From Streptomyces sp. CA-278952 (GTDB lineage Bacteria; Actinomycetota; Actinomycetes; Streptomycetales; Streptomycetaceae), in assembly GCF_028747205.1 (NCBI RefSeq), contig NZ_CP112880.1, positions 1-64,000 on the forward strand: a stretch of DNA of 64,000 nucleotides. The letters are read 5' to 3'. The notes under the pieces were generated by a model. That model was not told the DNA's origin. It saw nothing but the letters and a program-made list of their open reading frames with translations, and ran no database searches. Positions 6,361-26,130 of this stretch are shown one piece after another. A program made the translations under genes and the position numbers. Each line of letters starts with the position of its first letter. The first letter of the stretch is position 1.

Positions 6361-6800
6361 CAACCCATATGGAGACGCCGGGACGGGGTGTTGTCGTGTC
6401 GCCGCTGTCCCCGGAGCGGAGCGGCGGGGACGCCGTCCGGCAGCGCGGAGCGCTCGGGGCGGCGCGCAGCGCTGTCCCGCTTGGCCGGACGGCACCGCCG
6501 TGGGGCGCGGAGCGCACCCGGCGGCCGGTGGGGCGGGGTCGAGAGCGCGGAGCGCGCGGCCGGGGAGCGGAGCGGACCGGCGGCCCCGCCCCACCGTTGG
6601 CGTGAGAGCGCGGAGCGCTCGGTCCGGGGAGCGCAGCGGACCGGCACGCCGTGGGGGGTGAGGAGCGCAGCGGATCACCCCCCACGCGGCGGCACGTCAA
6701 CACCCCGCCCCGGCGACTCCAGAGAACGCGGGCCGTCAGGCCCGGCCGTGCTGTGCTGCGCCTCTCGTGCCTTGCTGCGCCCCGTACTTCGCTGCGCCCC
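6361..6800. repeat. intergenic hairpin module, copy 1
   Basis: About 440 bp are duplicated at 8185-8660. It is an array of short hairpins whose loops contain a GAGCG(G/C)AGCG core. Examples are GAGCGC/GCGCTC at 6606-6620, GGTCCG/CGGACC at 6621-6642, GTCCCCG/CGGGGAC at 6407-6431, and a perfect 11-bp stem at 6651-6661/6675-6685 with loop GGAGCGCAGCGGA. It also has TGCTGCGCCCC repeats near 6755-6805. It fills the space after dnaN and before the promoter of the 6240 remnant. I see no gene in it. Confidence 0.8.
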
Positions 6801-6808
6801 CGGGGTGG

Positions 6809-8062: not shown

Positions 8063-8127
8063 GCTTCTCCCTTGGGTTGGGTTGCGCTTGGGTTCGTTGG
8101 GCGGCTGCTACTGCCGACCAACAAGAC

Positions 8128-8145
8128 AACCTTACATCACTTACA
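8128..8145 (-). promoter_or_regulatory. shared 18-bp promoter motif upstream of dnaN
   Basis: Plus-strand AACCTTACATCACTTACA, 66 bases upstream of the dnaN ATG. It matches the tap promoter motif at 12-13 of 18 positions. Confidence 0.55.
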
Positions 8146-8184
8146 TGCCGCGCGAGGGTGGTTCTGAGGACGTTTCCGCAGGTC

Positions 8185-8660
8185 AACCCATATGGAGACA
8201 CCGGCGGCGGGTGTTGTCGTGTCGCCGCTGTCCCCGGAGCGGAGCGGCGGGGACGCCGTCCGGCAGCGCGCAGCGCTCGGGGCGGCGCGCAGCGCTGTCC
8301 CGCTTGGCCGGACGGCACCGCCGTGGGGCGCGGAGCGCACCCAGCGGCCGGTGGGGCGGGGTCGAGAGCGCGGAGCGCGCGGCCGGGGAGCGGAGCGGAC
8401 CGGCGGCCCCGGCATCCTCGGGCGTGAGAGCGCGGAGCGCTCGGTCCGAGGAGCGCAGCGGACCGGCACGCCCTGTGGGGGTGAGGAGCGCAGCGGATCA
8501 CCCCCACAGGCGGCGGCACGTCAACACCCGCCGCCGGTGACTCCACAGAGGTTCGGGCCGTCAGGCGCGGCGCGCCCGGGCCGTCAGGCTCCCGCCCCCT
8601 TTGTGCCTTGCTGCGCCCCGTTCGGCCACGACGCCGCCGCGCTCTTCGTACCTTGCTGCG
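8185..8660. repeat. intergenic hairpin module, copy 2
   Basis: The second copy of the 6361-6800 module, lying between the ligase gene and dnaN. The hairpin with loop GGAGCGCAGCGGA has here a 12-bp perfect stem (CTGTGGGGGTGA at 8473-8484, partner at 8498-8509). Its sequence differs from copy 1 on both sides, so pairing is kept by compensatory change. CCTTGCTGCGCCCCGT occurs twice, near 8604 and 8652. No gene is seen. Confidence 0.8.
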
Positions 8661-8670
8661 CCCCGTCCTG

Positions 8671-9498
8671 TCAGCGGATGCGGGCGACGGTGAGTGTGCC
8701 GTGGCGGCCGGACCCGGCGAGCACTTCCAGCACCAGCTCGGTGCTGAGTGCCGTGTACGTCTCGTCGCCCGCGCGGTGCTCCCCCGTGGCGGGTGCGCCG
8801 GCGAGTGCGGATCCGATGCGTGCGGCGAGCGCGGGGGCCAGGCGCGCGGAGAGGCGGGGCCGGGTCGATCCGGGCAGGAGGAGCGCGAGCGCGCGGGGCC
8901 GGCCGCGGGGGCCGGTGGCGCCGACCACGCGGGCGTCGACCGTGTCCGCGTGCCGGATCTTCACCCATGCCGTGCGGCGGCCGAACGGGTACGGGGAGCG
9001 GGCGGGCTTGGCCACGATCCCTTCCACGCCCTGCGCCCGGAGGACGTCGTACGACTGAAGGGCGAGTGTCCGGCTGTCCGTGGTCGGGGTGGCCTGGACC
9101 GGGGGGCCGACGTCCTTGAGGAGGTCGGCCAGGAGGGCGCGGCGGACGGTGTAGGGGCGGGCGGCGACGGGGCCGTGGTCGGGGTGCTCCAGGACGTCGA
9201 ACGCGGCGTAGGAGGCCGGGTGACGGGCGGCCAGGGCGCGGGCCCGGTCCAGCGAGGACGCGGCGCGGGCCTGGACCGCCCCGAAATCGATCCGGCCCCC
9301 GTGCCAGATGACCGCCTCCCCGGACAGCACGGTTCCCGGGGGCAACGCCATGGCAGGGACGGCGAGGTCCATCCAGTGCGAGGTGACGACCCGGCCCGTG
9401 CGGGAGTAGCAGATCACCCCGTCCCCGGTGCGCCGGAGCATCATCCGGTGCCCATCGACCTTGACCTCGAAATGCCACCCGGGGCCGGTCGGCAGCAT
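8671..9498 (-). CDS. ATP-dependent DNA ligase, probably frameshifted near its N-terminus
   Basis: The nucleotidyltransferase core is intact: motif I EVKVDGHR with the adenylated Lys, motif III GEAVIW, motif IV EGIVAKP and motif V WVKIR, followed by a short OB-like C-terminal part. At 275 aa from ATG 9498 it is a minimal LigD-type ligase that seals nicks using ATP. Upstream, a different frame starting at GTG 9538 encodes VEYPIRPALARGTD, the usual N-terminal lead (the P-x-LA segment) of this family. The frames join if two bases are missing near 9495-9500. Either the gene uses ATG 9498 or it is frameshifted. It lies upstream of dnaN on the same strand. Confidence 0.8.
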   Translation of the reverse strand: MLPTGPGWHFEVKVDGHRMMLRRTGDGVICYSRTGRVVTSHWMDLAVPAMALPPGTVLSGEAVIWHGGRIDFGAVQARAASSLDRARALAARHPASYAAFDVLEHPDHGPVAARPYTVRRALLADLLKDVGPPVQATPTTDSRTLALQSYDVLRAQGVEGIVAKPARSPYPFGRRTAWVKIRHADTVDARVVGATGPRGRPRALALLLPGSTRPRLSARLAPALAARIGSALAGAPATGEHRAGDETYTALSTELVLEVLAGSGRHGTLTVARIR

Positions 9499-9740
9499 CG
9501 GTACCGCGCGCCAGTGCGGGCCGGATCGGGTACTCCACACCCCGACCCTGCCCCGTCCCGGCCCGCACCGCACCTCGGGTTCCGGGGCCCGGCCGGGGCC
9601 ACCGCGGGCGCATGGGCGACTGGTCCAGGACACGGCGTTTGGATGACCTAAAGTCCGGATGGGGCACCGCTGTGGAAACTCAGTACAGCCGATGGGGAGT
9701 CAACTAATCTTCATGGTCAGCGGGAGACCGGGGGAAGAAC

Positions 9741-10328
9741 ATGATGTCTTTGGCCGAGCACCAGCGGTTGCACCTGATGTTCGAGGGTCGGTGCGCCGCC
9801 CGTGAACCCTCAAAGCCGAAGCTGGCCCCTGCGGATGCGTCAGTTACCCTTAGTGATGACTCCCGCCTCTATGTCTATAGCCGCACCCAGAACACAGGCG
9901 TCAATGTTCCAGAGGTTCTCGCGGTTGTCGCCGTCGCACCGTTCGTTACTGCGGTTGCGACGTCGTTGGGCACCGTGATGGGCGAGCGTATTGACCGGGC
10001 TCTTCACCTCCTCCTGCAAAAGCTGCCGAGGATGGCCATCTTGGTGAGCCGGGGAACGGGTGTTCAGCCTCCTTCAGGGCTACCAACCAATCCCAGCCCC
10101 GCGACCCTCTCCTTGATTGAGGGTCCGAAGATCCACATCGGTTCGGGGACCCCAACCGACGCGCTGAGTCTTCTGCCCACAATGGACTTTTCCGACTTGG
10201 CGAACATGGGCGACTACCCGCAGATCGTGCGTTGGATGGATGGCAGGTGGCACGCCCTGGCGATCAAGGACGAGCAGATCATCGACCTTGTCTGGGATGA
10301 TGAAGCGCGTCAATGGGTGCTCTTCTGA
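9741..10328 (+). CDS. hypothetical protein
   Basis: A 195-aa protein; ATG 9741 follows GGGGGAAG. Residues 60-95 form a hydrophobic/amphipathic helix pair (VLAVVAVAPFVTAVATSLG then RIDRALHLLLQK). The C-terminal part is acidic with tryptophans (IVRWMDGRWHALAIKDE, LVWDDEARQWVLF). No family is recognised. It is alone between convergent or divergent minus-strand genes. Its codon usage looks less GC-biased than its neighbours, which may indicate transfer. Confidence 0.65.
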   Translation: MMSLAEHQRLHLMFEGRCAAREPSKPKLAPADASVTLSDDSRLYVYSRTQNTGVNVPEVLAVVAVAPFVTAVATSLGTVMGERIDRALHLLLQKLPRMAILVSRGTGVQPPSGLPTNPSPATLSLIEGPKIHIGSGTPTDALSLLPTMDFSDLANMGDYPQIVRWMDGRWHALAIKDEQIIDLVWDDEARQWVLF

Positions 10329-10473
10329 ACCTCTGAGCTTGACCCCGTTGGGAAACCCTTCTCTCCTGGGGCCGGCGGCTCGATGTGGTCGTTACGGCAC
10401 CGGCTTCCCCACCGCCGATGGCGAATCACCAGGTGAGCGGTCAACGGGGGCCTGGCCGCTCCGGGCTGCCGAG

Positions 10474-10545
10474 TCAGAGGGTGAGGGCGGCGATGACGTC
10501 GTCGGGCAGTGGCGTGATGCCGTCGGCCAGGTAGCGGACATCACC
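10474..10545 (-). pseudogene. C-terminal scrap of a second DUF6292-like gene
   Basis: The minus strand reads VRYLADGITPLPDDVIAALT and then Leu and a stop, closely matching the C-terminus of the gene at 10746 (IRYLAGGITPPPGALIAALT). The rest of this paralogue is missing and abuts a transposase fragment. Confidence 0.6.
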
Positions 10546-10694
10546 GTGCCGTCCAGCAGAACGACCGCCCTACCCTTCTTGGCGATCTTCTTCAGGGCAC
10601 GTTCCAGACGCGGGGCACGGGCGGCCAGCAGCCGCAGGACTTCCTGCACCCACCGGCGCAGGGCGGAGGCGGGGATCCGGTTGCCGTCGGCCAT
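10546..10694 (-). pseudogene. transposase remnant (IS5/IS4-type DDE)
   Basis: It encodes ALRRWVQEVLRLLAARAPRL followed by ERALKKIAKKGRAVVLLDGT, the region leading to the first catalytic Asp of many Streptomyces IS5/IS4-type transposases. It stops at that point, joined to the DUF6292-like scrap. Only a scar of the element remains. Confidence 0.6.
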
Positions 10695-10745
10695 ATGAGC
10701 CGGATCCGTACCGGGAGGCCTCAGGTCAGCGCCGAACGTGGACGG

Positions 10746-11771
10746 TCAGCGAGTGAGAGCGGCAATCAGGGCGCCGGGTGGCGGGGTGATACCCCCGGCG
10801 AGGTACCGGATGCCGTCGCCCTCCGGCGGAAGGACCGCGCCCTTGGTGAGCGGGTGCCGGCGGGAGGCTGCGGTGCGCCACCCGTACCGCTCGTCCCAGA
10901 CCAGGGCGGGGGCCGGGGCCTGGTCGCCGTCGAGCACGAGCGCGGCAACGACCCTGTCGTCGCCGGGGAACTGGACGTCGGGTGCGGCCTCGGTGTTGGT
11001 CCAGCCGGCGCGGTGCAGGGCGGTGGTGACACCGGCCAGGTATGGGGCGGCCCGGCGGGCGCGCAGGACGGTGTCGGCGCGTGCGGTGGCGCGGCGGACC
11101 TGTCCGGCCGGGTAGCCGAGTGCCACCGCGGCTTGATCGGGGGTCAGGGACGGGTCGGTGTGCATGAGGTCGGCCATGCGGTCGGCGCGGAGCCGGGTGA
11201 GGGCTTCCTGTGCGGTGTCGCGGTGGATGCCGAGTGCCTCGGTCACCCCGGCAGAACTGATGGTGGGGTCGGCGTCGAGGAGTTCGGCGGTGAGGGCGGG
11301 GAGCTGGTCGCGGGGGACCTGGTCCCCGGTGCCCTCCGGGCGTCCGGTCACGGTCGGCTTGCCCGGCCGGCTGGTCTGGTACTGCCGGACGATGCCGCGG
11401 GGCCAGTGCTCCACCCCGCCGACGTCGGTGACGTGCTCGGTCAGGAGCGGGTGGCGCTTGTAGCCGTCCCAGGTGCGGGGGGTGACGCCGATCGCAGCTG
11501 CGCACTCCTGGCGGTCCAAGAGGTCATCGTCGCCGTCCTGGTCCGGAAGCGGCGGCACGGGCTTGCCCAGGAGGTAGGCGTCGACCTGTTCGCCGTCGTA
11601 GAGGCGTGTGCGGGCCTTGGGTGAGCTGACCGGCGGCGGGAACCCGGGGGCCTCGTACGGCTTGAGCTTGAGGTACCTCTCCGTGCGCAGTCCCTGCTGT
11701 GCGGCGAGGTCCGCCAGGGTGCGTACGAGGTGGCGGCGTCCTGCTCTGATCACGGGTGCTCCCCAACTCAC
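10746..11771 (-). CDS. DUF6292-like protein with N-terminal helix-turn-helix
   Basis: A 341-aa protein starting at GTG 11771. Residues 85-115 look like a helix-turn-helix (DRQECAAAIGVTPRTWDGYK), and a second HTH-like stretch lies near 180-230 (SSAGVTEALGIHRDTAQEAL). The C-terminal 100 residues (YLAGVTTALHRAGWTN, ALVWDERYGWRTA, YLAGGITPPP) resemble the actinobacterial DUF6292 family, common on Streptomyces plasmids; function unknown. No Shine-Dalgarno is seen, but TATAGA lies just upstream of the GTG, suggesting a leaderless transcript. A paralogue remnant lies just downstream. Confidence 0.7.
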   Translation of the reverse strand: MSWGAPVIRAGRRHLVRTLADLAAQQGLRTERYLKLKPYEAPGFPPPVSSPKARTRLYDGEQVDAYLLGKPVPPLPDQDGDDDLLDRQECAAAIGVTPRTWDGYKRHPLLTEHVTDVGGVEHWPRGIVRQYQTSRPGKPTVTGRPEGTGDQVPRDQLPALTAELLDADPTISSAGVTEALGIHRDTAQEALTRLRADRMADLMHTDPSLTPDQAAVALGYPAGQVRRATARADTVLRARRAAPYLAGVTTALHRAGWTNTEAAPDVQFPGDDRVVAALVLDGDQAPAPALVWDERYGWRTAASRRHPLTKGAVLPPEGDGIRYLAGGITPPPGALIAALTR

Positions 11772-11810
11772 CGTCTATAAAACGGTACCGGTGTCTGTGT
11801 CCTGGCCCAG

Positions 11811-11833
11811 CGTACGGGTACGCTGCCCGTACG
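11811..11833. promoter_or_regulatory. dyad symmetry upstream of the DUF6292-like gene
   Basis: CGTACGGG (11811-11818) and CCCGTACG (11826-11833) form an 8-bp dyad with a 7-base spacer, 40 bp upstream of the GTG at 11771. Its position suits an operator. Confidence 0.45.
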
Positions 11834-11961
11834 AGGGCGTGACCTTACGGGTTGTGCGCTTGGGTTGGCCGGTGCCCGTGCTACCCGCTCCTGTGAGCGG
11901 ACTGAGGGCGCCGGCCTTTTCGCGTTCACGCCCTGGTGGTTCTTCCCGGCGGCGGGGGCTG

Positions 11962-12065
11962 GTGCCGGTGACAGGCCGCCACCGGCACCGTGCGGTCCTG
12001 GCCGTACTCCGGTGACCGGACCTGACCCGCACACCCATACGGCACGGACTGGCCCGACCCTATCC
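11962..12065. repeat. hairpin plus conserved 65-bp element, copy A
   Basis: A 10-bp stem hairpin (GGTGCCGGTG at 11962-11971, partner 11981-11990) is followed, after 10 bases, by a 65-bp block 12001-12065 that recurs at 21706-21772 with few changes. The core is CACCCATACGGCACGG. No gene is seen in the 11,772-12,122 gap apart from this and the dyad. Confidence 0.7.
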
Positions 12066-12122
12066 AGCACCACGGCCCGGCGACGTGCCCGCACCGAGGT
12101 GCGGGCACGTGGAGCCGGGACG

Positions 12123-12479
12123 CTACAGCCAGTCAAATGTGCGCCGGATGTCGGTCGCCGCGCCCGAGAGGTTGTCCACGTCGAGCCGGACGTCGATGTC
12201 GTACGGGTCGTCGGCGGCCTCCATGACCCGCTCGGAAGCGGCGTCGAAGACCCGGGCGAACGCCTCGTCGACACGGGCGTCCTTCAGGGCCTGGACGATG
12301 CCATCCTGGTCCGCGCGGCCGCGCCGGACGGCGTCGGCGAGGAGGTTTAGGGCGGCGGCTGCAGCCGGGGCGAGCACGGCCAGCTCCTCCCCCGCGCCGG
12401 CGGCGGCGCCGGTCCGTTCGGCCGACGTCTCCACGTTGCTGAGCCGGGCGAGGGCAGCGCTCTGGCGGCCCGTCCTGAT
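12123..12479 (-). CDS. small hypothetical protein, possible ATC start
   Basis: An acidic, helical protein ending DVRLDVDNLSGAATDIRRTF then DWL. No family is recognised. The first conventional start is GTG 12434 (103 aa), but it has no ribosome site. An in-frame ATC at 12479 is preceded by AGGAGG with 6-base spacing and no stop between, giving 118 aa (TIRTGRQSAALARLSNVETS at the start). The end at 12479 is annotated on that basis; 12434 is the conservative alternative. The shared promoter motif lies upstream at 12556-12573. Confidence 0.55.
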   Translation of the reverse strand: MRTGRQSAALARLSNVETSAERTGAAAGAGEELAVLAPAAAAALNLLADAVRRGRADQDGIVQALKDARVDEAFARVFDAASERVMEAADDPYDIDVRLDVDNLSGAATDIRRTFDWL

Positions 12480-12555
12480 GGTGGCCTCCTGTCTCGTCGT
12501 GCGGGGTGGGAGAGGGGCGGCGCGCTCTGGCAGTGGACACCCACAGCGCCGAGAA

Positions 12556-12573
12556 AACTGTACCTTACTTTAA
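12556..12573 (-). promoter_or_regulatory. shared 18-bp promoter motif upstream of the 12123 gene
   Basis: Plus-strand AACTGTACCTTACTTTAA; on the minus strand the -10-like TACAGT is the same as in the tap promoter. Confidence 0.5.
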
Positions 12574-12630
12574 AGCACCATGATCGAACGGCGAGCGCGA
12601 ACCACGCCCCTGCGGGCCGGCGCTCTTGGG

Positions 12631-13203
12631 ATGATGTCGGGCATGACAAGCGAAGTGGCGACCATCGTCGCAGCGGTGATTGCCGGAGCGGTGGTGTTGG
12701 CCAGCGGGTTCTTTCTCGGCCGGAGGCAGGTCAGGGATCAAGCTGCGGTCGAGCATGGCCAGTGGCTCCGTGGACAGCGTCAGGACGCGTACATTGCGCT
12801 CCTCGATGCCTGGGATACCGCAGTGAAGGGACTTCAAAGGGAGATCGACCCGGGAGAGCACTTCGAGGAAGTAGCGGCGCATGTGGAATCGCAGAGCGGC
12901 CCCAGCTTTTGGGAGGACCACGAGGCGAGTACGGCGACCCAGGTGGATCGAATCTCTGAAGGCGTGCAGCGCCCCCTGGAGCGGGTGTTGCTTCTCGGCC
13001 CGGAAGCTGTGGACAGAGCGTGCATCAACCTTGCCGAAGCGCTGGAGGTCCTGGGATCGTCGGTGCGCTCGAACTCCGGAACCCCGGACTGGCCCAACTA
13101 CAACATGTACCAAGACATGTGCAGGAATGCAGAGGAGGCGCGGAGGGCATTCCTGGACGCGTCACGCGAATCCATGCGCGCAGCACCACGCCCCGGCCAC
13201 TGA
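12631..13203 (+). CDS. membrane-anchored hypothetical protein
   Basis: A 190-aa protein with an N-terminal transmembrane helix (EVATIVAAVIAGAVVLASGF) and a basic flank (LGRRQVRDQ), then a helical cytosolic part (residues 35-190). ATG codons at 12631, 12634 and 12643 are all possible; none has a strong ribosome site. It resembles in layout the protein at 21797 (TM helix, coiled region, many His/Trp) but the sequences are not obviously homologous. Function unknown. It ends just before the long inverted repeat at 13228. Confidence 0.6.
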   Translation: MMSGMTSEVATIVAAVIAGAVVLASGFFLGRRQVRDQAAVEHGQWLRGQRQDAYIALLDAWDTAVKGLQREIDPGEHFEEVAAHVESQSGPSFWEDHEASTATQVDRISEGVQRPLERVLLLGPEAVDRACINLAEALEVLGSSVRSNSGTPDWPNYNMYQDMCRNAEEARRAFLDASRESMRAAPRPGH

Positions 13204-13227
13204 GCGGTGCTACCACTCACATCCATA

Positions 13228-13424
13228 TTGGGGCCCTGGCTTTGTCCACGAGAACCGGCTCTGGCTCAACTTCTGTGGTGCTGGTCGGCGGTCAGCGAAT
13301 CTGGTCGGCGCTCCAGGGAAAGCGGCAGGTCAGAAGAGCGGTCCGGCGTGGGGACGGAGCGCAAGGAGCAGGACCACAGAAGTTGAGCCAGAGCCGGTTC
13401 TCGTGCACAAAGCCAGGGCCCCAA
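13228..13424. mobile_element. 197-bp MITE-like element with 51-bp terminal inverted repeats
   Basis: Bases 13228-13278 and 13374-13424 are inverted copies differing at one position (core GGCCCTGGCTTTGT). The 95-bp centre has no gene. It sits between two convergent genes. I see no target duplication. It could be a non-autonomous transposon, a pair of IS ends, or a very long terminator hairpin. Confidence 0.65.
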
Positions 13425-13488
13425 CGACGTACCGGATGGCGGTCAGAGGCGAGCTGAGGCTCTAAAGCCAGGCCGTGGAACTCGGGCT

Positions 13489-14382
13489 TCAGGTGCCGCT
13501 GGCGGTGCCACTCAGCAGAGGGTCGACGAAGGCGGCAGCGAGAGCAGCTGCCTCGGAGAGCGTCGCGCAGCCGTTCAGTCCCACGACCAGTTTGGCCTGT
13601 TTGGGGTAGCCCTCGTGCCAGTTGGATCCGGGTATCTGGAAGGTGTCGGGGAGGGGCAGGTGCGTGCCGCAGTCGCGGCGTCTGTCGGCTTCGCGTTGCA
13701 GAGCTTGGAGCGCAGCTTGGCTGGGGACCGTCTCCTGTTGGCCGATGAGGAGAAGGTCCGCGAGGTCGCGGTAGCGGTTGGATCCGTGCTGGCCGCTTGC
13801 GCCATGTCGTTCGTACATGGCGCAGATCTTGTCGGCGACGTGGTCGACGACCGGGTACAGGCGAACCTCGGGCCAGTCGACGGGCCATTCGAGGTCGACG
13901 GCAGACTTGAGCGTGCGTACTTCGACAGTCCCTGTGAGCGGGCGGCCGACGACGAGGTCGACCTTGATGGTCATCACTTCGGCGGATCCGAGGTAGACCT
14001 TGAAGTACTGGGCTCCGCCGCGTCCGTCCTCTGCGGCGCCGCTGTATTTGGTGGGTGCGTAGCGAAGAAAGTCGTCGAGGTCGAAGGCGGCTGCGTCGAT
14101 GACCAGTTGCCGGACTTCACTAGCCGTGAGGTCGAGGTTCGTGCTCTGAAGGTCGATGTCCTGGCTGAGACGGGCGGCGCCTCGGTAGCGGACGAGGAGG
14201 GCTTGTCCGCCTTTGATGAGCCAGCCGTCCGGGTCCTTGGTGAACACGCGGGCGGCTAGCCGGTTGAAGTAGAAGATCTTCATGAGGTCGGTGACGCTCA
14301 TGCCTGTCTTCAGGGACATCTTGCGTGCCGAATTTCCCAGAGCCGTTTGGAAGGCTCTAGGGGTGGCGTAGGTCTTCTGCAA
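13489..14382 (-). CDS. abiEii: AbiEii toxin, nucleotidyltransferase (type IV toxin-antitoxin)
   Basis: A 297-aa protein. The nucleotidyltransferase signature is WLIKGGQALLVRY followed by RLSQDIDL (GG...DxD). Downstream are DHVADKICAMYERHG and NRYRDLADLLLI, which match the conserved K and R-DLxD motifs of the AbiEii/Cap17 family. Such toxins transfer nucleotides (to tRNA in the mycobacterial homologue MenT3) and stop growth; they protect against phage by abortive infection. The antitoxin gene lies upstream on the same strand (28 bases between), antitoxin first as usual. All core residues appear intact. Confidence 0.88.
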   Translation of the reverse strand: MQKTYATPRAFQTALGNSARKMSLKTGMSVTDLMKIFYFNRLAARVFTKDPDGWLIKGGQALLVRYRGAARLSQDIDLQSTNLDLTASEVRQLVIDAAAFDLDDFLRYAPTKYSGAAEDGRGGAQYFKVYLGSAEVMTIKVDLVVGRPLTGTVEVRTLKSAVDLEWPVDWPEVRLYPVVDHVADKICAMYERHGASGQHGSNRYRDLADLLLIGQQETVPSQAALQALQREADRRRDCGTHLPLPDTFQIPGSNWHEGYPKQAKLVVGLNGCATLSEAAALAAAFVDPLLSGTASGT

Positions 14383-14409
14383 GTGGACATCCCCGGGCAG
14401 TCAGTTGGA

Positions 14410-15765
14410 TCACTGATCGTACTCGGAGTCCGGTTTGCCGCCCGCGCTTTTTTGAACATCGTCCGTGACCTGGTGCTGGACTGTGTGCTCGGTAGAGGTC
14501 TCGTGAGCTGCCCGGCCGCTTGATGAGTCTTGTTGCTCGATCGCAGGACGGCTTTCGACAGTTGCGGCGCCGCTTCCTTGTTCGAGAGCTCGGGGATTCG
14601 CGGTCTGCTCGTGTATCCGCCGCATGGCCTGCAGAGGAGCGTTCGTCGCCGCACTCATCTCAGCAATCCGCCGCAAGGTCTCCTGCAGAGCGCTGTCCGG
14701 CAACGCCATCTGCTCATTCATCCGCCGCATGGTTTCCTGCAGAGGAGCACTCGTCGCCGCAAGCTGCTCACCAATCCGCCGCATGGCCTCCTGCAGAGGA
14801 GCGTTCGTCGCCGCACTCATCTCAGCAATCCGCCGCAAGGTCTCCTGCAGAGCGCTGTCCGGCAACGCCATCTGCTCATTCATCCGCCGCATGGTTTCCT
14901 GCAGAGGAGCACTCGTCGCCGCAAGCTGCTCACCAATCCGCCGCACACTCTCCTGCAGAGCGCTGTTCGGCAGAACCGTCTGCTCGTGCATCCGCTGGAT
15001 GGCCTGGATTGACTGGCGGATGGCAGGGCTAGGTTGGTAGGCCTCTCGAGTCATTAGTTCGAGGGCAGTGGCGAAGCCTTCTGTGCTGGCTCTGGCGACT
15101 TCTTGGGATCTCAGGTGCTTGCCGGCTTGGTCGACCAGGTGCTCGATGAGTTCCTGCCCTGTGGCCTGGGCGGGAAGGCCGTAGGTGCGGGTAAAGGGCT
15201 GGGCGGATTCCTGGAGGTCTTGGATCTCGATGAGGTCGAGACGTTCCGCGTCGGCGATGACTCCGCCGAGGTGGCCGCCGTCGGTTTTGCTGCGGAGCAG
15301 GTCGAGAATGGTGCGGCGGGCTGTAGTGACGGGCAGCCCTTGAACGAGCGTGATGTCGTCCGGCTCCAGTTGCACAGTGCGCAGGTGGACGAATGGCTCG
15401 GTGGTCGTCCGTCGTCGGGGCACGCTGATCTCGGTCTTCGGAGCGGGAATGTCTCCCAAACCGTGGAGCTGGCACGCGGAGGCGTGGGAGACGACACCGG
15501 AGTCCTTGCCCCCCAGCGGGCGCTCCGAGGCGAAGACCGCGGGTTGCAGGCGCAGCCAGGCAACCTTGAGCTCCAGGTGCAAGGGGAAGCCCGCCGCTTG
15601 AAGGAGATAGACGCCTCTGCCAACGTTCTCGATCAGTCCTGCTTCGGCTAGCCGAAGGATCTGCACGGCGGTCAGGCCGATCCGCTTCGCTTGGGCAGCG
15701 GTTACAAGTCCCCATTGGTCGGAGGCGTGCTCGGCGACGCGCCTCAGCTGCTCTCCACGGTCCAT
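14410..15765 (-). CDS. abiEi: AbiEi antitoxin and repressor with tandem-repeat C-terminus
   Basis: The N-terminal 200 residues match AbiEi: a winged helix (DQWGLVTAAQAKRIGL, ILRLAEAGLIENVGRGVYLL) followed by the antitoxin domain (SACQLHGLGDIPAPKTEISV, LPVTTARRTILDLLRS). ATG 15765 is chosen because the winged helix begins soon after; ATG 15783 is possible. At 451 aa it is unusually long, because residues 270-400 are tandem 54-aa repeats of amphipathic helix (LQETMRRMNEQ, LQETLRRIAEM, MRRIGEQLAAT) predicting a coiled coil. AbiEi neutralises AbiEii and represses its own promoter; matching operator repeats lie at 15796-15868. Confidence 0.85.
   Translation of the reverse strand: MDRGEQLRRVAEHASDQWGLVTAAQAKRIGLTAVQILRLAEAGLIENVGRGVYLLQAAGFPLHLELKVAWLRLQPAVFASERPLGGKDSGVVSHASACQLHGLGDIPAPKTEISVPRRRTTTEPFVHLRTVQLEPDDITLVQGLPVTTARRTILDLLRSKTDGGHLGGVIADAERLDLIEIQDLQESAQPFTRTYGLPAQATGQELIEHLVDQAGKHLRSQEVARASTEGFATALELMTREAYQPSPAIRQSIQAIQRMHEQTVLPNSALQESVRRIGEQLAATSAPLQETMRRMNEQMALPDSALQETLRRIAEMSAATNAPLQEAMRRIGEQLAATSAPLQETMRRMNEQMALPDSALQETLRRIAEMSAATNAPLQAMRRIHEQTANPRALEQGSGAATVESRPAIEQQDSSSGRAAHETSTEHTVQHQVTDDVQKSAGGKPDSEYDQ
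14625..14950 (-). repeat. two tandem 162-bp repeats inside abiEi
   Basis: Two near-identical 162-bp (54-codon) units in tandem, approximate edges given. Each is itself built from three roughly 18-residue helices beginning PLQE or ALQE. Further partial units flank them. Confidence 0.8.
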
Positions 15766-15795
15766 GCAGCCATAGTTACACATGATTCTAGAATC

Positions 15796-15868
15796 TTGCA
15801 GAGTTAGTTACGCCTGGGTGTAACTAACTCTGCAAGACCGCCCCGGCTAGGCGTAACTAACTCTGCAA
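15796..15868. promoter_or_regulatory. AbiEi operator: inverted repeat plus extra half-site
   Basis: TTGCAGAGTTAGTTA (15796-15810) and its inverse (15821-15835) form a dyad; the inverse recurs at 15854-15868. The array starts 31 bases upstream of abiEi ATG 15765. AbiEi proteins are known to bind inverted repeats in their own promoter, so this is probably its operator. Confidence 0.8.
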
Positions 15869-15910
15869 AAAATCATTCGAGAGCCGATTCAGTTCGCCCC
15901 GCCGGCCCGG

Positions 15911-16486
15911 TCAGGCGGCCCAGCCGATCGAGGACACGTAGCTGTACCCGTCGTAGTCCGAGCCGATCAGGTCCAGGACCTCATCCCAGACCGCGTCCAG
16001 CTCGTCCAGGTCGTCGTCCATCCACGCGTCCACGGCACGGTCCCAGACCCCCCGGACGTTGATGCTGCGGGGGGCCAGGTCCCGCCGGTACCTGTCGTCC
16101 ACCCCGGTCTGGTTGACCGGGTTGATCTCCACCCGGGTCCCCCGGCCCCCGTTGTTGAGCCGGTGCTTGAGGTCGGTGGCGACGTTGCGGCGGCGCAAGT
16201 CCCAGTACGCCGCGTCCAGGCGGGCGAGGTTCGCTTTGTTCGGGGTGCGCTCCTCGGCGAGCCACGCCATCAGGGTGCGCGGGGAGACGTGGACGCCGGC
16301 GCGGTCCATCGCCTCGTATCCGGCGTCGGACTTGGTGAGGTAGTTCAGGCGGGCGGCGAGGCCGCGGTCGCTGTCGACCGGTGAGGCGACACCGCGCACC
16401 ATCCCCTCCATGGCGATGCCGAGGGCTTCGGCCCCGGGCGCGCCGTCCGCGCCGTACTTGCCGAAGTCCTTCCAGCGTCCGGCCAT
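15911..16486 (-). CDS. tpg: Tpg-like telomere terminal protein
   Basis: A 191-aa protein, close to the 184-185 aa of Streptomyces Tpg. The layout matches: ARLNYLTKSD, an HTH-like stretch (GVHVSPRTLMAWLAEERTPN), a basic linker, a strand segment RVEINPVNQTG, then DDRYRRDLAPRSIN and a long acidic helix (VWDRAVDAWMDDDLDELDAV). Sequence identity to classical Tpg appears low. Tpg is covalently attached to 5' telomere ends and primes end patching. The call depends strongly on the upstream tap-like gene: start ATG overlaps the tap stop (TGATG), as in tap-tpg operons. The acceptor residue cannot be assigned here. Confidence 0.65.
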   Translation of the reverse strand: MAGRWKDFGKYGADGAPGAEALGIAMEGMVRGVASPVDSDRGLAARLNYLTKSDAGYEAMDRAGVHVSPRTLMAWLAEERTPNKANLARLDAAYWDLRRRNVATDLKHRLNNGGRGTRVEINPVNQTGVDDRYRRDLAPRSINVRGVWDRAVDAWMDDDLDELDAVWDEVLDLIGSDYDGYSYVSSIGWAA

Positions 16487-18102
16487 CAGCCGCCCACCTT
16501 CCCGACCAGGTACTCACCGGAAGCCTTGCCGTCACCGGTCTTGATCTTCAGTTCGGCCACGCCCCGGCCCTCGGTGAACACCTGCCGCCAGTCCCCGATC
16601 ACGTGGAGTTCGTCGGTGTGCTTGAGCGCGACGACGTCCAGTCCGGCCTGGTGGGCCTTGTAGGCGCGGCCGCAGTGCAGGGCGTACGCCTGGCTGTGGA
16701 TGTTGTGCATCCAGTCGGGGCGGACCATCTCGCGGTTGTGGATCGACTCCCCCATGGTGCTGACGAACTTGCTGTACATCGCTTTGACGTACTCGATCAT
16801 CAGCGTGTCTCCGGCGGTGATCGCCTCCGAACGGGCGGACGTCAGGAGCTTGCGCAGGGCGTCGAGGAAGTTCTCGGTCGCGCCGGACGTCCAGGACTCG
16901 TGGACGGTCGGGGCTCCGGTCAGGCCCCACTTCGGGCCGGACAGGCGCAGCAGGAGGCGCAGGGTGGCGTCGGTGATCCAGAGGGCGCCGGGTTCGTCGC
17001 GGTCCCCGAGCGGGTTGGGCAGGTGGGGGTGGGTCCACTCGGCGGGGGTGATCAGGTGGACGCCGGAGCGCTTCGGGCCGACGCCGTCCGTGCCGGTGGT
17101 GTGCTCCAGCTTCCCGATCGGGAGCCACACCTTCAGCGCGGACAGGTAGGCGGCGTTGACGTCCAGGGCGGTCACCCGCAGGTCCGCGTGGGGGGCGCGG
17201 AGGGAGTAGGCGGGGTTGTTGTAGGCGGGCCGGGCCTCCCAGATCTGATCCGGCTCCTTCTTCGACGGCTTGTGCAGGATGTCCGGCAGCGCCGGATAGG
17301 CGGTGTACTCGTAACGGGCCGTGGCCCGGGTCTCGTTGAAGAGGTGCATGACGTCCGGGATCGCCCTGTTGATCAGCGCCTTGAGCGCGGCGTCCTCGTC
17401 CCCGCCGGCGCGCTCCGCCTCCTGCTCGACCGCACCCCGGATCAGCGCCATCAGATCCGCCTCGGCGCGCTCGGCGGACTTCGACCGGCGCTGCGGGCGG
17501 GTCGGCACCGGGGCCGGGACCGGCGAGACCGGAGCCGGTGCGGGTGCGGCCGGTGCGGGCGCGGTGGCGGTCGGGGCCGGGGCCGGGGCGGTGGTGGTGA
17601 CGGCCGGGGCCGGGGCGGTGGTGGTGGGCTGGCACAGGGCGCCGGAGTGGAGCGGGCGGCCGTCGGTGGACTGGTAGGTCGTCTCGACACCGCACCGGAC
17701 ACAGGGGCCCGGGTCGCCCTCGATCGCGCGGCCGTCCGGGCCTCGCAGGGTTTCCAGGCCGGTGAACGCCGCAGGCACCGGGGCAGAGGCCATCGAGGCC
17801 GGGGCGGGCTCCTCGGTGAACAGCGCGGCGACCGGGTCCGGGGACGACGGGGTGGGGGTGGGGTGGATTTCGGCGAGGCCCTTCAGCAGGCGCAGGTAGG
17901 GCAGGCGGGCGGGCGGGACGGGGCTGGAGGCTCCGGTCTCCCAGTTCGCGACGGTGCCGCGCTGGACCCCGACCGCCGCGGCGACCTGGGCGCGGGAGAG
18001 GCCGGCTGCCTCGCGGAGCCGCAGGCGCTCCTCCGGCGGGGGGATCGCGGCGTTCAGCCGGGCCTCTTCGAGCAGCGCTTCCACGCTGGTTCCTTCACTC
18101 AT
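16486..18102 (-). CDS. tap: Tap-like telomere-associated protein, short form
   Basis: A 538-aa protein. The N-terminus (PPPEERLRLREAAGLSRAQV, then AVGVQRGTVANWETGASSPV) is the XRE-type domain characteristic of Tap. A long Ala/Pro/Thr linker follows (residues 150-205). The C-terminal 300 residues hold VTALDVNAAYLSALKVW, KAMYSKFVSTMG and ALKHTDELHVIG, which align in order with motifs A, B and C of family B-like polymerase palms and with the DIN-type motif of classical Tap. Tap binds telomeric overhangs and recruits Tpg. Classical Tap is about 740 aa, so this one lacks a middle region. ATG 18102 lies 7 bases after the promoter motif, so the mRNA is probably leaderless. Confidence 0.7.
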   Translation of the reverse strand: MSEGTSVEALLEEARLNAAIPPPEERLRLREAAGLSRAQVAAAVGVQRGTVANWETGASSPVPPARLPYLRLLKGLAEIHPTPTPSSPDPVAALFTEEPAPASMASAPVPAAFTGLETLRGPDGRAIEGDPGPCVRCGVETTYQSTDGRPLHSGALCQPTTTAPAPAVTTTAPAPAPTATAPAPAAPAPAPVSPVPAPVPTRPQRRSKSAERAEADLMALIRGAVEQEAERAGGDEDAALKALINRAIPDVMHLFNETRATARYEYTAYPALPDILHKPSKKEPDQIWEARPAYNNPAYSLRAPHADLRVTALDVNAAYLSALKVWLPIGKLEHTTGTDGVGPKRSGVHLITPAEWTHPHLPNPLGDRDEPGALWITDATLRLLLRLSGPKWGLTGAPTVHESWTSGATENFLDALRKLLTSARSEAITAGDTLMIEYVKAMYSKFVSTMGESIHNREMVRPDWMHNIHSQAYALHCGRAYKAHQAGLDVVALKHTDELHVIGDWRQVFTEGRGVAELKIKTGDGKASGEYLVGKVGG

Positions 18103-18107
18103 ACGAG

Positions 18108-18125
18108 AACTGTACCGCACTTACA
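18108..18125 (-). promoter_or_regulatory. tap promoter with shared 18-bp motif
   Basis: Plus-strand AACTGTACCGCACTTACA; on the minus strand TACAGT serves as -10, ending 7 bases before the tap ATG. The divergent gene at 18191 starts 65 bases away, so the region is bidirectional. Confidence 0.6.
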
Positions 18126-18190
18126 CAACTATTAGTGCTAGATTGCGCAGCAGTTGTACGTGTGTTGGCGATGGCAGGGTGAGGAGCACG

Positions 18191-18751
18191 ATGATCTGGA
18201 CTCCGGAGGACGTGGCACGTGATCAGGTGCGCCGTCAGGCGGCGGGCATGACCGGGGCGCAGGTGGACCAGGCCGTGGACACGGCCGTGGTGCGGGTGCG
18301 CGAGACCCGCCAGGAGCTGCGCTCCCCGGTGGCGGTCCGGGAGTTCGCGGCGGATCCGCAGGAGCTGGCCGACCGGTGGGCGGCCCTGCTCACCGAATGG
18401 CAGCGGGTCGCCGCCCACCTCGCCGCATCCGGTGCCGGCGTCTACGACGGCGACCTGGACGAGAAGGGCAGCGCCTGGGCGCGGGAGCGGGAGGAGCGGC
18501 GCACCACGGCGCTGCGGACCCATGCCGCGTGGACGGAGCAGCAGCGGGAGAAGCGGGACGAGCTGTGTGCCGAGGTGTGGCTGGGCGCGGCTGCCGGGCG
18601 GCGGGTCCGTGCGGTGGCGGCGCGGGCCGGGCTGACCCCGAACGAGGTACTGGTCCAGCTCGTCGAGCGGGTGAGCGTCGATGATGACGGGGTGGTGTCC
18701 GTCGCCCCGTTCACCCCGGGCCGGACCGCCGGGCTGAGTGAGGAGCGATGA
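18191..18751 (+). CDS. hypothetical protein in helicase operon
   Basis: A 186-aa helical, charged protein; ATG 18191 follows GAGGAG. It contains EREERRTTALRTHAAWTEQQ followed by REKRDELCAEVW and ends with a possible HTH (RVRAVAARAGLTPNEVLVQLV). No family is recognised. Its stop overlaps the helicase start (ATGA), so both are made from one message. Being divergent from tap and paired with a helicase, it may help in replication or end processing; that is inference from position only. Confidence 0.7.
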   Translation: MIWTPEDVARDQVRRQAAGMTGAQVDQAVDTAVVRVRETRQELRSPVAVREFAADPQELADRWAALLTEWQRVAAHLAASGAGVYDGDLDEKGSAWAREREERRTTALRTHAAWTEQQREKRDELCAEVWLGAAAGRRVRAVAARAGLTPNEVLVQLVERVSVDDDGVVSVAPFTPGRTAGLSEER

Positions 18752-21519
18752 GCATGCAGGGGATCACGCTGCGGCCGCATCAGGTTGAGGCGGTTGACGC
18801 GATCGTGCGCGGCCTGTCCCTCCCGGCCGACAGGACGCTGCCCGTGGGCGGGCTGCGCGGCCAGGTCCACATGGCCACCGGCACCGGCAAGACCGTCACC
18901 GCGGCGATGGCCGCGCTCAAGCTGTGCCCGAACGGAGTGATCGGCGTCCTGGTCCCGACCCTGGATCTGCTGACGCAGACGATCGAGGCATGGCGCCGGG
19001 CCGGGCACACCGGCCCGGCGGTCGCGGTGTGCTCCCTCGGGGCGGACCCGCTGCTGGAAGCCCTCGGGGTGCGGTGCACGACCAACCCGACCCAACTCGC
19101 CCTGTGGGCAAGCGACGGGCCGGTGCTGGTGTTCGCGACGTACGCCTCCCTCGCCCCGCAGGGCCTGGCCGACGACCAGAACGACGACGCCCCGGACACC
19201 GCCGCCCCCGGCGTCCTGGAACAGGCGCTGCGCGGCTCCTACGGGCAGAAAATGGCGCCCTTCGACCTATTGGTCGTGGACGAGGCCCATCGCTCGTCCG
19301 GCAGCGCCGCGAAGGCCTGGGCGTGCGTGCACGACCAGACCCGCATCCCGGCGATGCGGCGCCTGTACATGACGGCGACCCCGCGCCTGTGGGAAGCGGG
19401 ACCCGCTGCGGCGGACGTCGCGGAGAAGGAGGACGTCGACGCCGACCCGGAGATGTCCGCCCCGGCCGGGACCGTCCCGCAGAACGGCGGTGAGGCGCTG
19501 GGCGGACGGCTCGTCGCCTCGATGGACGACACCGAGCTGTACGGGCCGGTCCTCCACGAGACCGGCCTCATGGAGAGTGTGGAGCGCGGCGTCCTCGCCC
19601 GGTTCGAGATCGACGTCCTGGAGATCCGCGACCCCTCACCCCTCGCCGACGACGCGTCACTGGAGGAACGGCGCGGCCGGCGGCTCGCCGCCCTACAGGC
19701 CGCGCTCCTCAAGCACGCCGACGAGACCGGCGTCCGCTCCTACATGACGTTCCACTCCCGCACCCTGGACGCGATGAGCTTCGCCCGTGCGATGCCGGAG
19801 ACCGCCGCCCGCCTCCACCACGCCGACCCCGCCGCCTACCCGGGCCGGGTCGGCGCGGACTGGCTGTCCGGCGAACACCCCGCCACCCACCGGCGCGACG
19901 TCCTCGCCCGGTACGCGGACGGCCTCGACGCGGATGGATGGGTCTGCGAGCTGTCGTTCCTGGCCAGTTGCCGGGTCCTCGGGGAAGGCGTCGACATCAG
20001 GGGCAAGCGGGGAGTGCAGGCGGTCGTCTTCGCCGACACCCGCAGCAGCCCGGTCGAGGTCGTGCAGATCATCGGGCGGGCGCTGCGCCAAGAGCCCGGC
20101 GACGGCAAGGTCAGCAGGATCATCGTCCCGGTCTTCCTTCAGCCCGGGGAGGACCCCGGCGACATGATGGCCTCCCCCAGCTATACCGGGCTTGTCGCGA
20201 TCCTCCAGGGCCTGCGTGCACACGATGACCGGGTCATCGAGCGCATGGCGCTGCCCACCACCACCGCACGCGGACAGATCACCTCCGTCCTCGCCCTCGA
20301 CCCGCAGGAAGCCACGGCCGACGAGAACGGCGACCAGGGCGAGGGCCAGGAGGACGTCCCCGACGAAAGCGTGGCCGCCGGCCCCGGCGACGACGACCAG
20401 GACGACGCCGACACCGACGAGCACCAGGACGACGAGGGCGAGGGCGGCGAGGAGACCGGCGCGGCCCCGGGCATCGCGGGCACCAGCACGCCGCTGCTGC
20501 GGTTCTCCCTCCCCCGCGACCCGCAGTCCATTGCCCTGTTCCTCCGAACCCGCGTCCTGCGGCCCGACTCCGAGGTCTGGCTCACCGGGTACAGCGCCCT
20601 GCGCGCCTTCGTCGACGAGCACGGGCACGCGCAGGTCCCCAGCGAGACCACCGTCGAGCTGGGCGACGACGGCGGCACGTACGGGCTGGGCAGCTGGGTC
20701 ACCGAGCAGCGCCGCGCGTTCCGCGCCGGGACCCTCAAGGCGTGGCGCACCGACCTGCTGAACGAGGTGGGCATGGTCTGGTCGGTCGGCGACGCGGCGT
20801 TCTGGAAGAACCTCGGTGCGGCCCGCGCCTACTACGCCGTCCACTCCACTCTGGCCTGCCCGAGGAGCGCGGTGATGGACGGGGTCGCGGTGGGCCAGTG
20901 GGTCGCCAATCTCCGCAAGCCGGGCGGACTCGGCAGCGACCCGGTACGGGCCGACGAACGACGCCGGGCACTGGAAGCGATCGACCCGGACTGGAACCCG
21001 CAGTGGCCCGTCGAATGGCAGCGCCACTACGCCGCCGCCCGCATCCTCCTCGGCGAGGAACAGGGCCCGGCCGATGTCCTGCCCGGCGTCACCGTGAACG
21101 GCATCGACGTCGGCACCTGGATCGCCAAGCAGACCGACCCCTCCATCTGGAACACCCTGCTGCCCGAACAGTCCGAGCGCCTGGAAGCACTCGGCCTCAC
21201 CCCCCGGGCCACCCCGGCCGGGAAAGAGAGGGGGGCCGGGGCGTTCGAGCGAGGCATCGTCGCGCTCACCCAGTACACGGCGCGGGAAGGGCGGGTCGTC
21301 GTACCGAGGACCCACATCGAGGAGACACCCCACGGAGCGGTCCGGCTGGGCACCTGGATCAGCAACACCCGCACCCGGCGGGACAAGCTGAGCACCGAGC
21401 AGCGCGAGCAGCTCGCCACGCTCGGCATCGACTGGGCGCAGGAGGCCACCGCACGAGCAGTGAGGAGCGGATCGCAGCGATTCTGTCGGACCCGAAGGTG
21501 CAGCGGATCGGGGCGCTGA
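18748..21519 (+). CDS. DEAD/DEAH-box helicase with helicase-associated repeats
   Basis: A 923-aa superfamily 2 helicase. Motif I is HMATGTGKTVTAAM, motif II LLVVDEAHRSSG, motif III YMTATPRL, and motifs V-VI GEGVDIRGKRG...VEVVQIIGRALRQ. An acidic linker (residues 515-570) follows. The C-terminal third carries helicase-associated repeats with conserved tryptophans (YGLGSWVTEQRRAFRAGTL, VNGIDVGTWIAKQ, RLGTWISNTRTRRDKLS). Large helicases of this type are frequent near Streptomyces telomeres and on linear plasmids (compare ttrA); equivalence is unproven. The last 20 residues after IDWAQ look random and basic, so the true C-terminus may have been replaced. Confidence 0.85.
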   Translation: MSMQGITLRPHQVEAVDAIVRGLSLPADRTLPVGGLRGQVHMATGTGKTVTAAMAALKLCPNGVIGVLVPTLDLLTQTIEAWRRAGHTGPAVAVCSLGADPLLEALGVRCTTNPTQLALWASDGPVLVFATYASLAPQGLADDQNDDAPDTAAPGVLEQALRGSYGQKMAPFDLLVVDEAHRSSGSAAKAWACVHDQTRIPAMRRLYMTATPRLWEAGPAAADVAEKEDVDADPEMSAPAGTVPQNGGEALGGRLVASMDDTELYGPVLHETGLMESVERGVLARFEIDVLEIRDPSPLADDASLEERRGRRLAALQAALLKHADETGVRSYMTFHSRTLDAMSFARAMPETAARLHHADPAAYPGRVGADWLSGEHPATHRRDVLARYADGLDADGWVCELSFLASCRVLGEGVDIRGKRGVQAVVFADTRSSPVEVVQIIGRALRQEPGDGKVSRIIVPVFLQPGEDPGDMMASPSYTGLVAILQGLRAHDDRVIERMALPTTTARGQITSVLALDPQEATADENGDQGEGQEDVPDESVAAGPGDDDQDDADTDEHQDDEGEGGEETGAAPGIAGTSTPLLRFSLPRDPQSIALFLRTRVLRPDSEVWLTGYSALRAFVDEHGHAQVPSETTVELGDDGGTYGLGSWVTEQRRAFRAGTLKAWRTDLLNEVGMVWSVGDAAFWKNLGAARAYYAVHSTLACPRSAVMDGVAVGQWVANLRKPGGLGSDPVRADERRRALEAIDPDWNPQWPVEWQRHYAAARILLGEEQGPADVLPGVTVNGIDVGTWIAKQTDPSIWNTLLPEQSERLEALGLTPRATPAGKERGAGAFERGIVALTQYTAREGRVVVPRTHIEETPHGAVRLGTWISNTRTRRDKLSTEQREQLATLGIDWAQEATARAVRSGSQRFCRTRRCSGSGR

Positions 21520-24919: not shown

Positions 24920-25060
24920 CGCCCCATGCTGCCCGACGGCATCCCACGACGAGGAGCCGTCCCCAAAGTGTCATTCCGTTAGGAGTTCTAACTGATCGTT
25001 TCAGAATGAGATCGGTGTGGTGGCTTGGCAGTTGGGAGTTGGGTCGGCAGGATCTGTTGG

Positions 25061-25465
25061 GTGTCTGCTGATCTTGTGCCTGATGACCTGTGGGAACGCA
25101 TAGCCCCGCTGCTGCCGGTTCGACCGCCTCGACGACACCGGTATCCCGGGCGGCTGCCGGCCGATGACCGTGCTGCTCTGCGGGGCATCGTCTACGTGCT
25201 GCGCAAGAGTGTGAGCTGGCGCGACGTTCCCGCAGAGCTGGTGGGCTGCAGCGGCGTGACAGCCTGGCGGCGCCTGCGGGACTGGACCGAGGCCGGAGTG
25301 TGGCCCCGCCTGCATGAGGTTCTTCTGGCGGAACTGCGTAAAGAGGGCCTGCTGGAGATGGACGACGCCGCGATCGACGGCTCGCACGTCAGGGCTCTCA
25401 AAGGGGGGCTCACACCGGACCTTCGCCGGTCGACCGGGCCCGGCCCGGCAGCAAGCACCACCTGA
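25061..25465 (+). CDS. IS5-family transposase, first frame
   Basis: A 134-aa N-terminal part of the transposase from GTG 25061: VPDDLWERIAPLLPVRPPRR, GIVYVLRKSVSWRDVPAEL and DDAAIDGSHVRALKGG with the first catalytic Asp. The intact enzyme needs a -1 frameshift at the slippery run of three A and six G near 25399-25408 to join the second frame. Confidence 0.85.
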   Translation: MSADLVPDDLWERIAPLLPVRPPRRHRYPGRLPADDRAALRGIVYVLRKSVSWRDVPAELVGCSGVTAWRRLRDWTEAGVWPRLHEVLLAELRKEGLLEMDDAAIDGSHVRALKGGLTPDLRRSTGPGPAASTT

Positions 25466-25869
25466 TCGTCGACCGGCACGGAACCCCGCTCGCCGTTTCT
25501 CTGACCAGCGGAAACCGTCACGATGTTACCCAGCTCATGCCTCTGCTGGACGCCATACCCCGCATCCGCGGCCTGCGGGGCCGGCCACGCCAGCGGCCCC
25601 GGCGACTGTTCGCCGACCGCGGGTACGACTACGACAAGTACCGGCGTCTCGTCCGCGCCCGTGGGATCACACCCAAGATCGCCCGACGCGGCACCCCGCA
25701 CGGCTCGGGACTGGGCAAGACACGCTGGGTCGTCGAGCGGACCTTCGCCTGGCTCCACCAGTTCAAACGACTGCGCATCCGCTACGAGATACGAGCCGAC
25801 CTCCACCTCGCACTACTCCAACTCGCCTGCAGCATCATCTGCTTGAGACGACTCCGTACCTCATTCTGA
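25400..25869 (+). CDS. IS5-family transposase, second frame (catalytic)
   Basis: The -1 frame supplies KHHLIVDRHGTPLAVSLTSG, the second catalytic Asp in FADRGYDYDKYR and the catalytic Glu in VVERTFAWLHQFKRLRIRYE, ending at the right inverted repeat. It is translated by frameshifting from the first frame rather than from its own start. Confidence 0.82.
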
Positions 25870-25879
25870 AACGATCAGT

Positions 25880-26130
25880 AAGAGCGCGGCCATCGAGGCG
25901 CGGTTCACGGTCTTCCAGGCCCTGGCCGTCGTCGGGATCGGAAACGAGGAGGCCGACGACATCGTGTCGAAGCTGGAGGCCGGGGCGGTGGCCGGCGCTC
26001 ACACCTGGATCTCCGAGAGCAGTGGCCCGCACGGGTCCGGGCAGCGCTTCGAGGACGGCTGGCACGCCGGAGTCCGCGACGTCGCCAGCTGCCTGCTGCG
26101 CATCGCAGACACCACCGCCACCACGGGGTG
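25880..26130 (+). pseudogene. gene fragment interrupted by the IS element
   Basis: Just right of the insertion sequence a frame reads AAIEARFTVFQALAVVGIGN, EEADDIVSKLEAGAVAGAHT and RDVASCLLRIADTTAT, with normal codon bias. No start is present on either side of the insertion. Similar small proteins occur in Streptomyces phage-like regions; function unknown. Confidence 0.45.

Follow-up and report, generated by a model that had tools for sequence, protein, structure and literature searches.

What kind of machinery finishes the ends of a Streptomyces chromosome when the encoded proteins only partly resemble the classical telomere proteins Tap and Tpg? The question is raised by two overlapping genes in the window, the whole 64,000-nucleotide stretch analyzed here (bases 1-64000 of the single 8,211,675-base contig NZ_CP112880.1 of Streptomyces sp. 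CA-278952, assembly GCF_028747205.1). We conclude that they very probably form a GtpB-GtpA pair that patches chromosome ends, the C-terminus of GtpB being a family B DNA polymerase that primes on GtpA.

16486-18120, minus strand: gtpB-like (Tap-like) gene, 544 amino acids from a GTG; identical copy at 8197972-8199603, plus strand
15911-16486, minus strand: gtpA-like terminal-protein gene, 191 amino acids; identical copy at 8199606-8200178, plus strand
4417-21441, no strand: left-hand copy of the terminal inverted repeat, matching the right contig end over 17,026 bp at 99.994% identity

The first-pass annotation had described two overlapping genes with the order and layout of tap-tpg, and both open reading frames (ORFs) are present, sharing one base (TGATG); the end it gave, 18125, lies five bases too far, the gene beginning at 18120. 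Met7 of the GtpB-like protein (at 18102) hardly varies across 113 homologues and is a likelier start than the GTG. The second copy of the pair (8197972-8200178, plus strand) is identical and lies in the inverted repeat at the other chromosome end; because of this duplication and the many homologues, the pair is not a chance arrangement. A Tap-like gene followed by a terminal protein (TP)-like gene, in an operon near the chromosome ends, is the arrangement of GtpB-GtpA. Of 34 loci from the genome collection that hold a GtpA relative, 29 (L022-L050) were compared. In 24 of these, an ORF of at least 479 amino acids has its stop 0-200 bases before gtpA; in the other five the ORF is shorter, and in two of them it starts no more than 100 bases from the locus start. 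The closest relatives of the two proteins are from Streptomyces of the griseus/anulatus group, by database names.

16525-17475, minus strand: C-terminal domain resembling the palm and fingers of a family B polymerase, approximately residues 216-532 (AlphaFold AF2 model, Foldseek, VIA)
17140-17175, minus strand: motif A, VTALDVNAAYLS, Asp320, aligned with phi29 Asp249
16747-16791, minus strand: motif B, YVKAMYSKFVSTMGE, Lys446, aligned with phi29 Lys383
16597-16635, minus strand: motif C, VVALKHTDELHVI, Asp503, which pairs with phi29 Asp458; His501 takes the place of the motif's other Asp

Motifs A, B and C of a polymerase palm had been proposed in the C-terminus of the Tap-like protein, and closer alignment bears them out. 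The motif A Asp, the motif B Lys and the second motif C Asp are all present and aligned with the phi29 catalytic residues 249, 383 and 458 (249 runs 3 above the number in the fetched 572-amino-acid sequence). Asp320, Lys446 and Asp503 are identical in 117/117 GtpB-type C-terminal domains and count among the invariant positions of two alignments, one of 113 and one of 118 rows. In each of the six Taps, Asp and Lys also fill the Asp320 and Lys446 columns, and the motif C Asp is found in 6/6 in the uncut Tap alignment; motif C gaps in two of the six in a merged alignment arise because its rows were cut at 310 residues. An AF2 model of residues 212-544 (predicted template modeling score (pTM) 0.71, mean predicted local distance difference test (pLDDT) 76.8) has the palm and fingers of family B. 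Its best match (Foldseek, VIA) is phi29 polymerase bound to terminal protein, and the matches listed are family B polymerases; together with the N-terminal XRE helix-turn-helix (HTH), this is the fold that the first-pass annotation had anticipated. As regards the TPR1 insertion, which contacts the terminal protein, phi29 scores far above other family B entries, and between motifs A and B the stretch EPGALWITDATLRLL could be aligned with phi29. Instead of a 3′-5′ exonuclease, the N-terminus of the GtpB-like protein has an HTH together with a linker modeled for the most part at low confidence. A terminal-protein gene lies next door, gtpA overlapping gtpB, its identity as such resting on homology.

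Profile comparisons place the same domain in Tap. The GtpB and Tap domain profiles align with a score of 74.2 (E 8.5e-10), the shuffle maxima being 32.6 (60 shuffles) and 30.7 (40), and GtpB aligns with a DnaB-fused form at probability 99. A merged GtpB/Tap/DnaB-fused profile (32 rows) matched 34 phage polymerases with a score of 29.75 (E 0.0064), reached by 0/60 and 0/60 shuffles, and only this merged profile beat all shuffles against phage polymerases. The merged alignment runs end to end, sets Asp320, Lys446 and Asp503 on their phi29 counterparts, and has a motif order and spacing that fit family B. With the C-terminal 304 residues as query, tblastn found nothing in phages at E up to 1, and IMG/VR scans for Tap and GtpB gave no relative. 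Linear plasmids also carry a third architecture, in which this polymerase-like domain is joined to a DnaB-like helicase (L059, L063, L064). In Rhodococcus, 26 plasmid records hold weak matches to the domain (E 1e-4 to 1e-2). Among the matches listed, the proteins bear the annotation 'telomere-binding protein' and most lie near record ends, which suggests that the domain extends beyond Streptomycetaceae.

17866-18042, minus strand: XRE-type HTH, about residues 27-85, common with classical Tap (Pfam HTH_31, 2.9e-8 over residues 34-71; HTH matches also for the AlphaFold model)
17632-17703, minus strand: CxxC...H...C motif (C140, C143, H158, C163), a putative zinc site

By curated cut-offs the pair is not archetypal Tap-Tpg. 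The Tap profile NF047542 matches the GtpB-like protein through residues 12-161 only, with 63.8 bits, below the cut-off of 600; the S. lavendulae Tap, as control, scored 1024.9 bits, and of three of the six fetched Taps that were scanned, two passed and the Kitasatospora one, with 376.5 bits, fell below. Pfam and NCBIfam scans gave no polymerase match for the GtpB-like protein or for the three scanned Taps. The N-terminus aligns with a classical Tap by hhalign (residues 7-88, probability 98.8), and C140, C143, H158 and C163 are invariant in 113 GtpB-type sequences. A Tap about 200 residues short had been predicted, and the GtpB-like protein is 185-294 residues below six Tap-type proteins (729-838 amino acids).

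16136-16138, minus strand: codon of Thr117, candidate DNA-linking residue

A Tpg of only distant similarity had likewise been predicted, and the GtpA-like protein answers to this. It has no NCBIfam match at E up to 1, including to the Tpg profile NF047541 (cut-off 90 bits; control 300.1 bits), and a single Tpg showed no similarity to GtpA or to a GtpA profile. The profile of seven Tpgs shares with it an N-terminal HTH stretch, with a score of 30.7 reached by 0/40 shuffles (maximum 19.0) at an hhalign probability of only 32%. Tpg is reported to join DNA via Thr114 (PMC3572947). Thr117 is the only invariant Ser or Thr in 42 GtpA-type proteins, in which Tyr49, Tyr94 and Tyr181 are invariant too, and GtpA may thus be linked to DNA via Thr117. 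A Pfam RAG1 match of GtpA (E 0.044, below the cut-off) was rejected as chance.

The inverted 17,026-bp repeat at both contig ends implies that the chromosome is linear. The left contig end falls within an ORF, the right end stops at the equivalent of left position 4417, and both telomeres are unassembled. The first-pass annotation had suggested that the pair could tell what type of end the replicon has; as the contig breaks off within an ORF, the end type can be inferred only by way of plasmids that carry the same pair. Three linear plasmids with GtpB-GtpA (GtpB 71.6-76.4% identical) have a common terminal sequence of the GACGATAAAGCCC type at both ends, with GTA and GGA loop hairpins; by analogy the ends of this chromosome may be similar. 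A 110-base telomere query of 72,556 plasmid records found 35 records, with the best place no more than 50 bases from the record end in 35/35. The telomere sequence is present in 25 of the 36 listed records with GtpA of at least 60% identity and in 0/24 below (Fisher p 1.4e-8, which overstates the evidence because related strains are counted separately); these are 60 listed records, and 97 further GtpA-matching records lie outside the count, two at 60% or more by tally. No match to the telomere strings was found in the literature searched. The telomere of plasmid pRLB1-9.2 is described as having GGA loops (PMC7205883), and the plasmid, printed there as pRLB1-9.1, apparently as being without Tap and Tpg; pRLB1-9.2 (L060) carries a GtpB-like and a GtpA-like gene. 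More distant pairs go with other ends, that of NBC_01178 having many hairpins without the shared telomere sequence. Another of the ends that were folded, from Kitasatospora NBC_01519, begins in a gene.

In the mechanism that we propose, GtpA would be the terminal protein capping the 5′ ends, and GtpB would hold the folded 3′ overhang through its HTH, perhaps with the zinc module. The C-terminal domain of GtpB, predicted to have the palm and fingers of family B but no exonuclease and, it appears, no thumb, would join the first nucleotide to GtpA at the candidate Thr117 and lay a short patch, which a host polymerase would then extend to complete the gap.

Several observations weigh against this reading. 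The first motif C Asp (DTD) is absent, being His501 in the window and Gly in the homologue consensus, and the phi29 exonuclease and thumb are without counterpart in the GtpB-like protein. DnaB-fused relatives carry Thr at the Lys446 column, with Lys one position earlier. Taken singly against the phage polymerases, the GtpB profile is borderline (21.9; reached by 1/60 and 1/40 shuffles), and the DnaB-fused profile (19.6; 7/60 and 1/40) and the Tap profile (16.7; 11/60 and 23/40) are not significant, the reversed Tap profile scoring higher (21.7). The full-length model had no Foldseek match with E up to 0.001 in PDB or BFVD, the AF2 alignments were shallow (effective number of sequences (Neff) about 2), and just one of the five domain models, the best, was used for searching (the others had pLDDT 55-68). 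As to the telomeres, 11/36 plasmid records with GtpA at 60% or more are without a telomere match, 10/35 telomere records are without GtpA at that level, and the ends of an S. mobaraensis plasmid with a more distant pair barely fold (-5 kcal/mol predicted). The plasmid telomere sequence was found neither in this genome, at telomere-like strength and with contig ends incomplete, nor in 20 relatives, and draft ends make this absence uninformative. Lastly, the genome holds an intact classical Tpg (185 amino acids, 8127721-8128263, 277.9 bits, over the cut-off).

Among the alternatives, the one that survives best accepts the family B fold and takes the GtpB C-terminal domain as a degenerate scaffold that places the terminal protein, all synthesis being done by a host polymerase of the DinB1/DinB2 type. 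The missing motif C Asp favors it, as do a motif B that is unlike among GtpB, Tap and the DnaB-fused form and the need of linear replicons for DinB1 or DinB2 in vivo, given in the discussion of PMC4513846. We nevertheless consider it unlikely, given that Asp320, Lys446 and Asp503 are unchanged throughout the GtpB-type domains and that Tap and Tpg by themselves, like Tac and Tpc by themselves, are reported to give a TP-primed product in vitro (PMC4513846).

The intact Tpg raises the further alternative that GtpB-GtpA is a passenger and that the chromosome is capped by the classical Tpg with the adjoining shortened Tap. At 8127721-8129289 (minus strand), 83 kb from the right contig end, Tpg stands beside a Tap reduced to its polymerase-like domain: the C-terminal part, 8128321-8129289, is a 319-amino-acid ORF covering profile positions 393-695, and there is a smaller fragment. 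Such a domain on its own, paired with a terminal protein, might still work. On the other side, no match to Tap profile positions about 140-392 was reported in the genome; classical Tap being only partial, GtpB-GtpA is the sole complete pair of these kinds found, and it is identical at both ends. GtpA is also commoner where Tpg is absent. Among 61 genomes drawn from the genus, GtpA matched in 26 and Tpg in 47 (1e-10), and GtpA was present in 12/14 genomes without Tpg versus 14/47 with it (p 3.7e-4; 2.2e-4 at a stricter cut; genomes counted singly despite shared ancestry), a distribution that fits a swap of one capping system for another. The passenger explanation thus appears improbable, somewhat more so than the scaffold.

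An XRE regulator with its partner, from an unrelated plasmid replication or maintenance pair, is suggested by database names (mostly 'helix-turn-helix ...' and 'transcriptional regulator') and by relatives on many plasmid records (221 and 157), but is already disfavored, and very unlikely, in view of the polymerase-like fold, the Tap homology, the location in the terminal repeat and the linkage to one telomere sequence. Least probable of all is a catalytic domain of the archaeo-eukaryotic primase type, to which the sole pointer is that Yang et al. 2017 use 'primase' in their title; the family B matches listed for the domain model and the motif order and spacing speak against it.

Around the pair, the following features were found.

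18121-18190, no strand: putative divergent promoter region, separating gtpB from the genes read rightward
18191-18751, plus strand: 186-amino-acid protein without a Pfam family, a conserved neighbor (plasmids L120 and L117 have proteins 84% and 82% identical to it at the corresponding position)
18748-21519, plus strand: helicase with four HA repeats (Pfam ResIII, DEAD, HA), which we take to be TtrA-like

The order gtpA-gtpB-helicase was found in 3/3 linear plasmids inspected (L117, L118, L120), where a 'Helicase associated domain protein' is in the place of the window helicase; the 186-amino-acid protein lies between gtpB and helicase in two of the three (L117, L120). The inner border of the inverted repeat (21441) falls inside the helicase gene, about 78 bp short of its stop. 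Within the repeat, an AbiEii/AbiEi type IV toxin-antitoxin pair (13489-15783, minus strand; Pfam) adjoins gtpA, and its AbiEi-like gene repeats internally at an offset of about 159 bp; cross-matches imply two copies of ~490 bp, 90.7% alike, at 6261-6746 and 8082-8571, with 1.8 kb between. Window positions 24988-25888 give a 902-bp alignment (99.8%) with an inverted copy in the right arm, perhaps a mobile element.

If the preferred reading, a GtpB polymerase priming on GtpA, is extended to the family, we think it somewhat more probable than the contrary that all Tap-type actinobacterial telomere proteins (GtpB, Tap, the DnaB-fused form and perhaps the Rhodococcus 'telomere-binding protein') derive from a protein-primed polymerase of family B, having shed its exonuclease and thumb and acquired an HTH or helicase module. 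On this view, what was put forward in 2015 as a 'new class of DNA polymerases' (PMC4513846) would be a domesticated minimal phi29-like polymerase for chromosome ends, its terminal-protein gene inherited alongside, and bacterial chromosome telomeres would be tied to phage-type protein-primed replication. Tap and Tpg alone are reported there to make a TP-primed product with 13-nucleotide synthesis, and it is remarked there that they contain no polymerase motif; the polymerase domain assignment, made on a predicted model, appears to supply one. No title or abstract searched names Tap as a family B polymerase, though an earlier naming may be found in Yang et al. 2017 above all, Suzuki et al. 2008 or Ohnishi 2008. 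End-finishing in Streptomyces has so far been without an identified polymerase active site, and Asp320, Lys446 and Asp503, with their Tap counterparts, are targets for point mutation. The GtpA-linked telomere sequence offers a route to end-type prediction by gene content and to assembly finishing.

Compared with known systems, the pair stands closest to GtpB-GtpA of S. griseus IFO 13350 (Suzuki et al. 2008, cited in PMC7205883), an atypical pair whose GtpA is given as 18% identical to Tpg; the alternative capping system proposed in the first-pass annotation is thus of a kind already in the literature. Chromosomal homologues about 50% identical to those of griseus are reported in all eleven forest-soil strains of PMC7205883, and P0329 of one strain named there, S1A1-8, is 46% identical to the window GtpB over 96% of GtpB. 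Through S1A1-8, and thus by a transitive likeness (griseus sequences were not found in the collections searched), the two pairs would be of the same kind; both are a two-gene operon of a Tap-like then a TP-like gene, with a TP distant from Tpg. Genomes with the S. griseus 13350 end class are described as without similarity to Tap, Tpg, Tac and Tpc (PMC8743542). Tac-Tpc of SCP1, a telomere-associated and a terminal protein with TP-primed synthesis in vitro, is set beside GtpB by description only, Tac being reported without homology to Tap (PMC4513846). Archetypal Tap-Tpg shares with the window pair the gene order, the N-terminal HTH and, by profile comparison, the C-terminal domain, but its Tap is longer and its Tpg is resembled by GtpA only in the N-terminal HTH stretch. 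The DnaB-fused relatives (L059, L063, L064) have the same C-terminal domain, followed in L059 by a GtpA-like gene, as it is in L063 according to a profile; unlike GtpB they have a DnaB-like helicase domain and no HTH match (L059, L063). With the protein-primed family B polymerases (phi29, PRD1, a Streptomyces tectivirus) GtpB shares palm and fingers, motifs A, B and C and a neighboring terminal-protein gene; unlike them it has an HTH and is without an exonuclease domain or thumb match, and it would serve to patch chromosome ends rather than to copy whole genomes.
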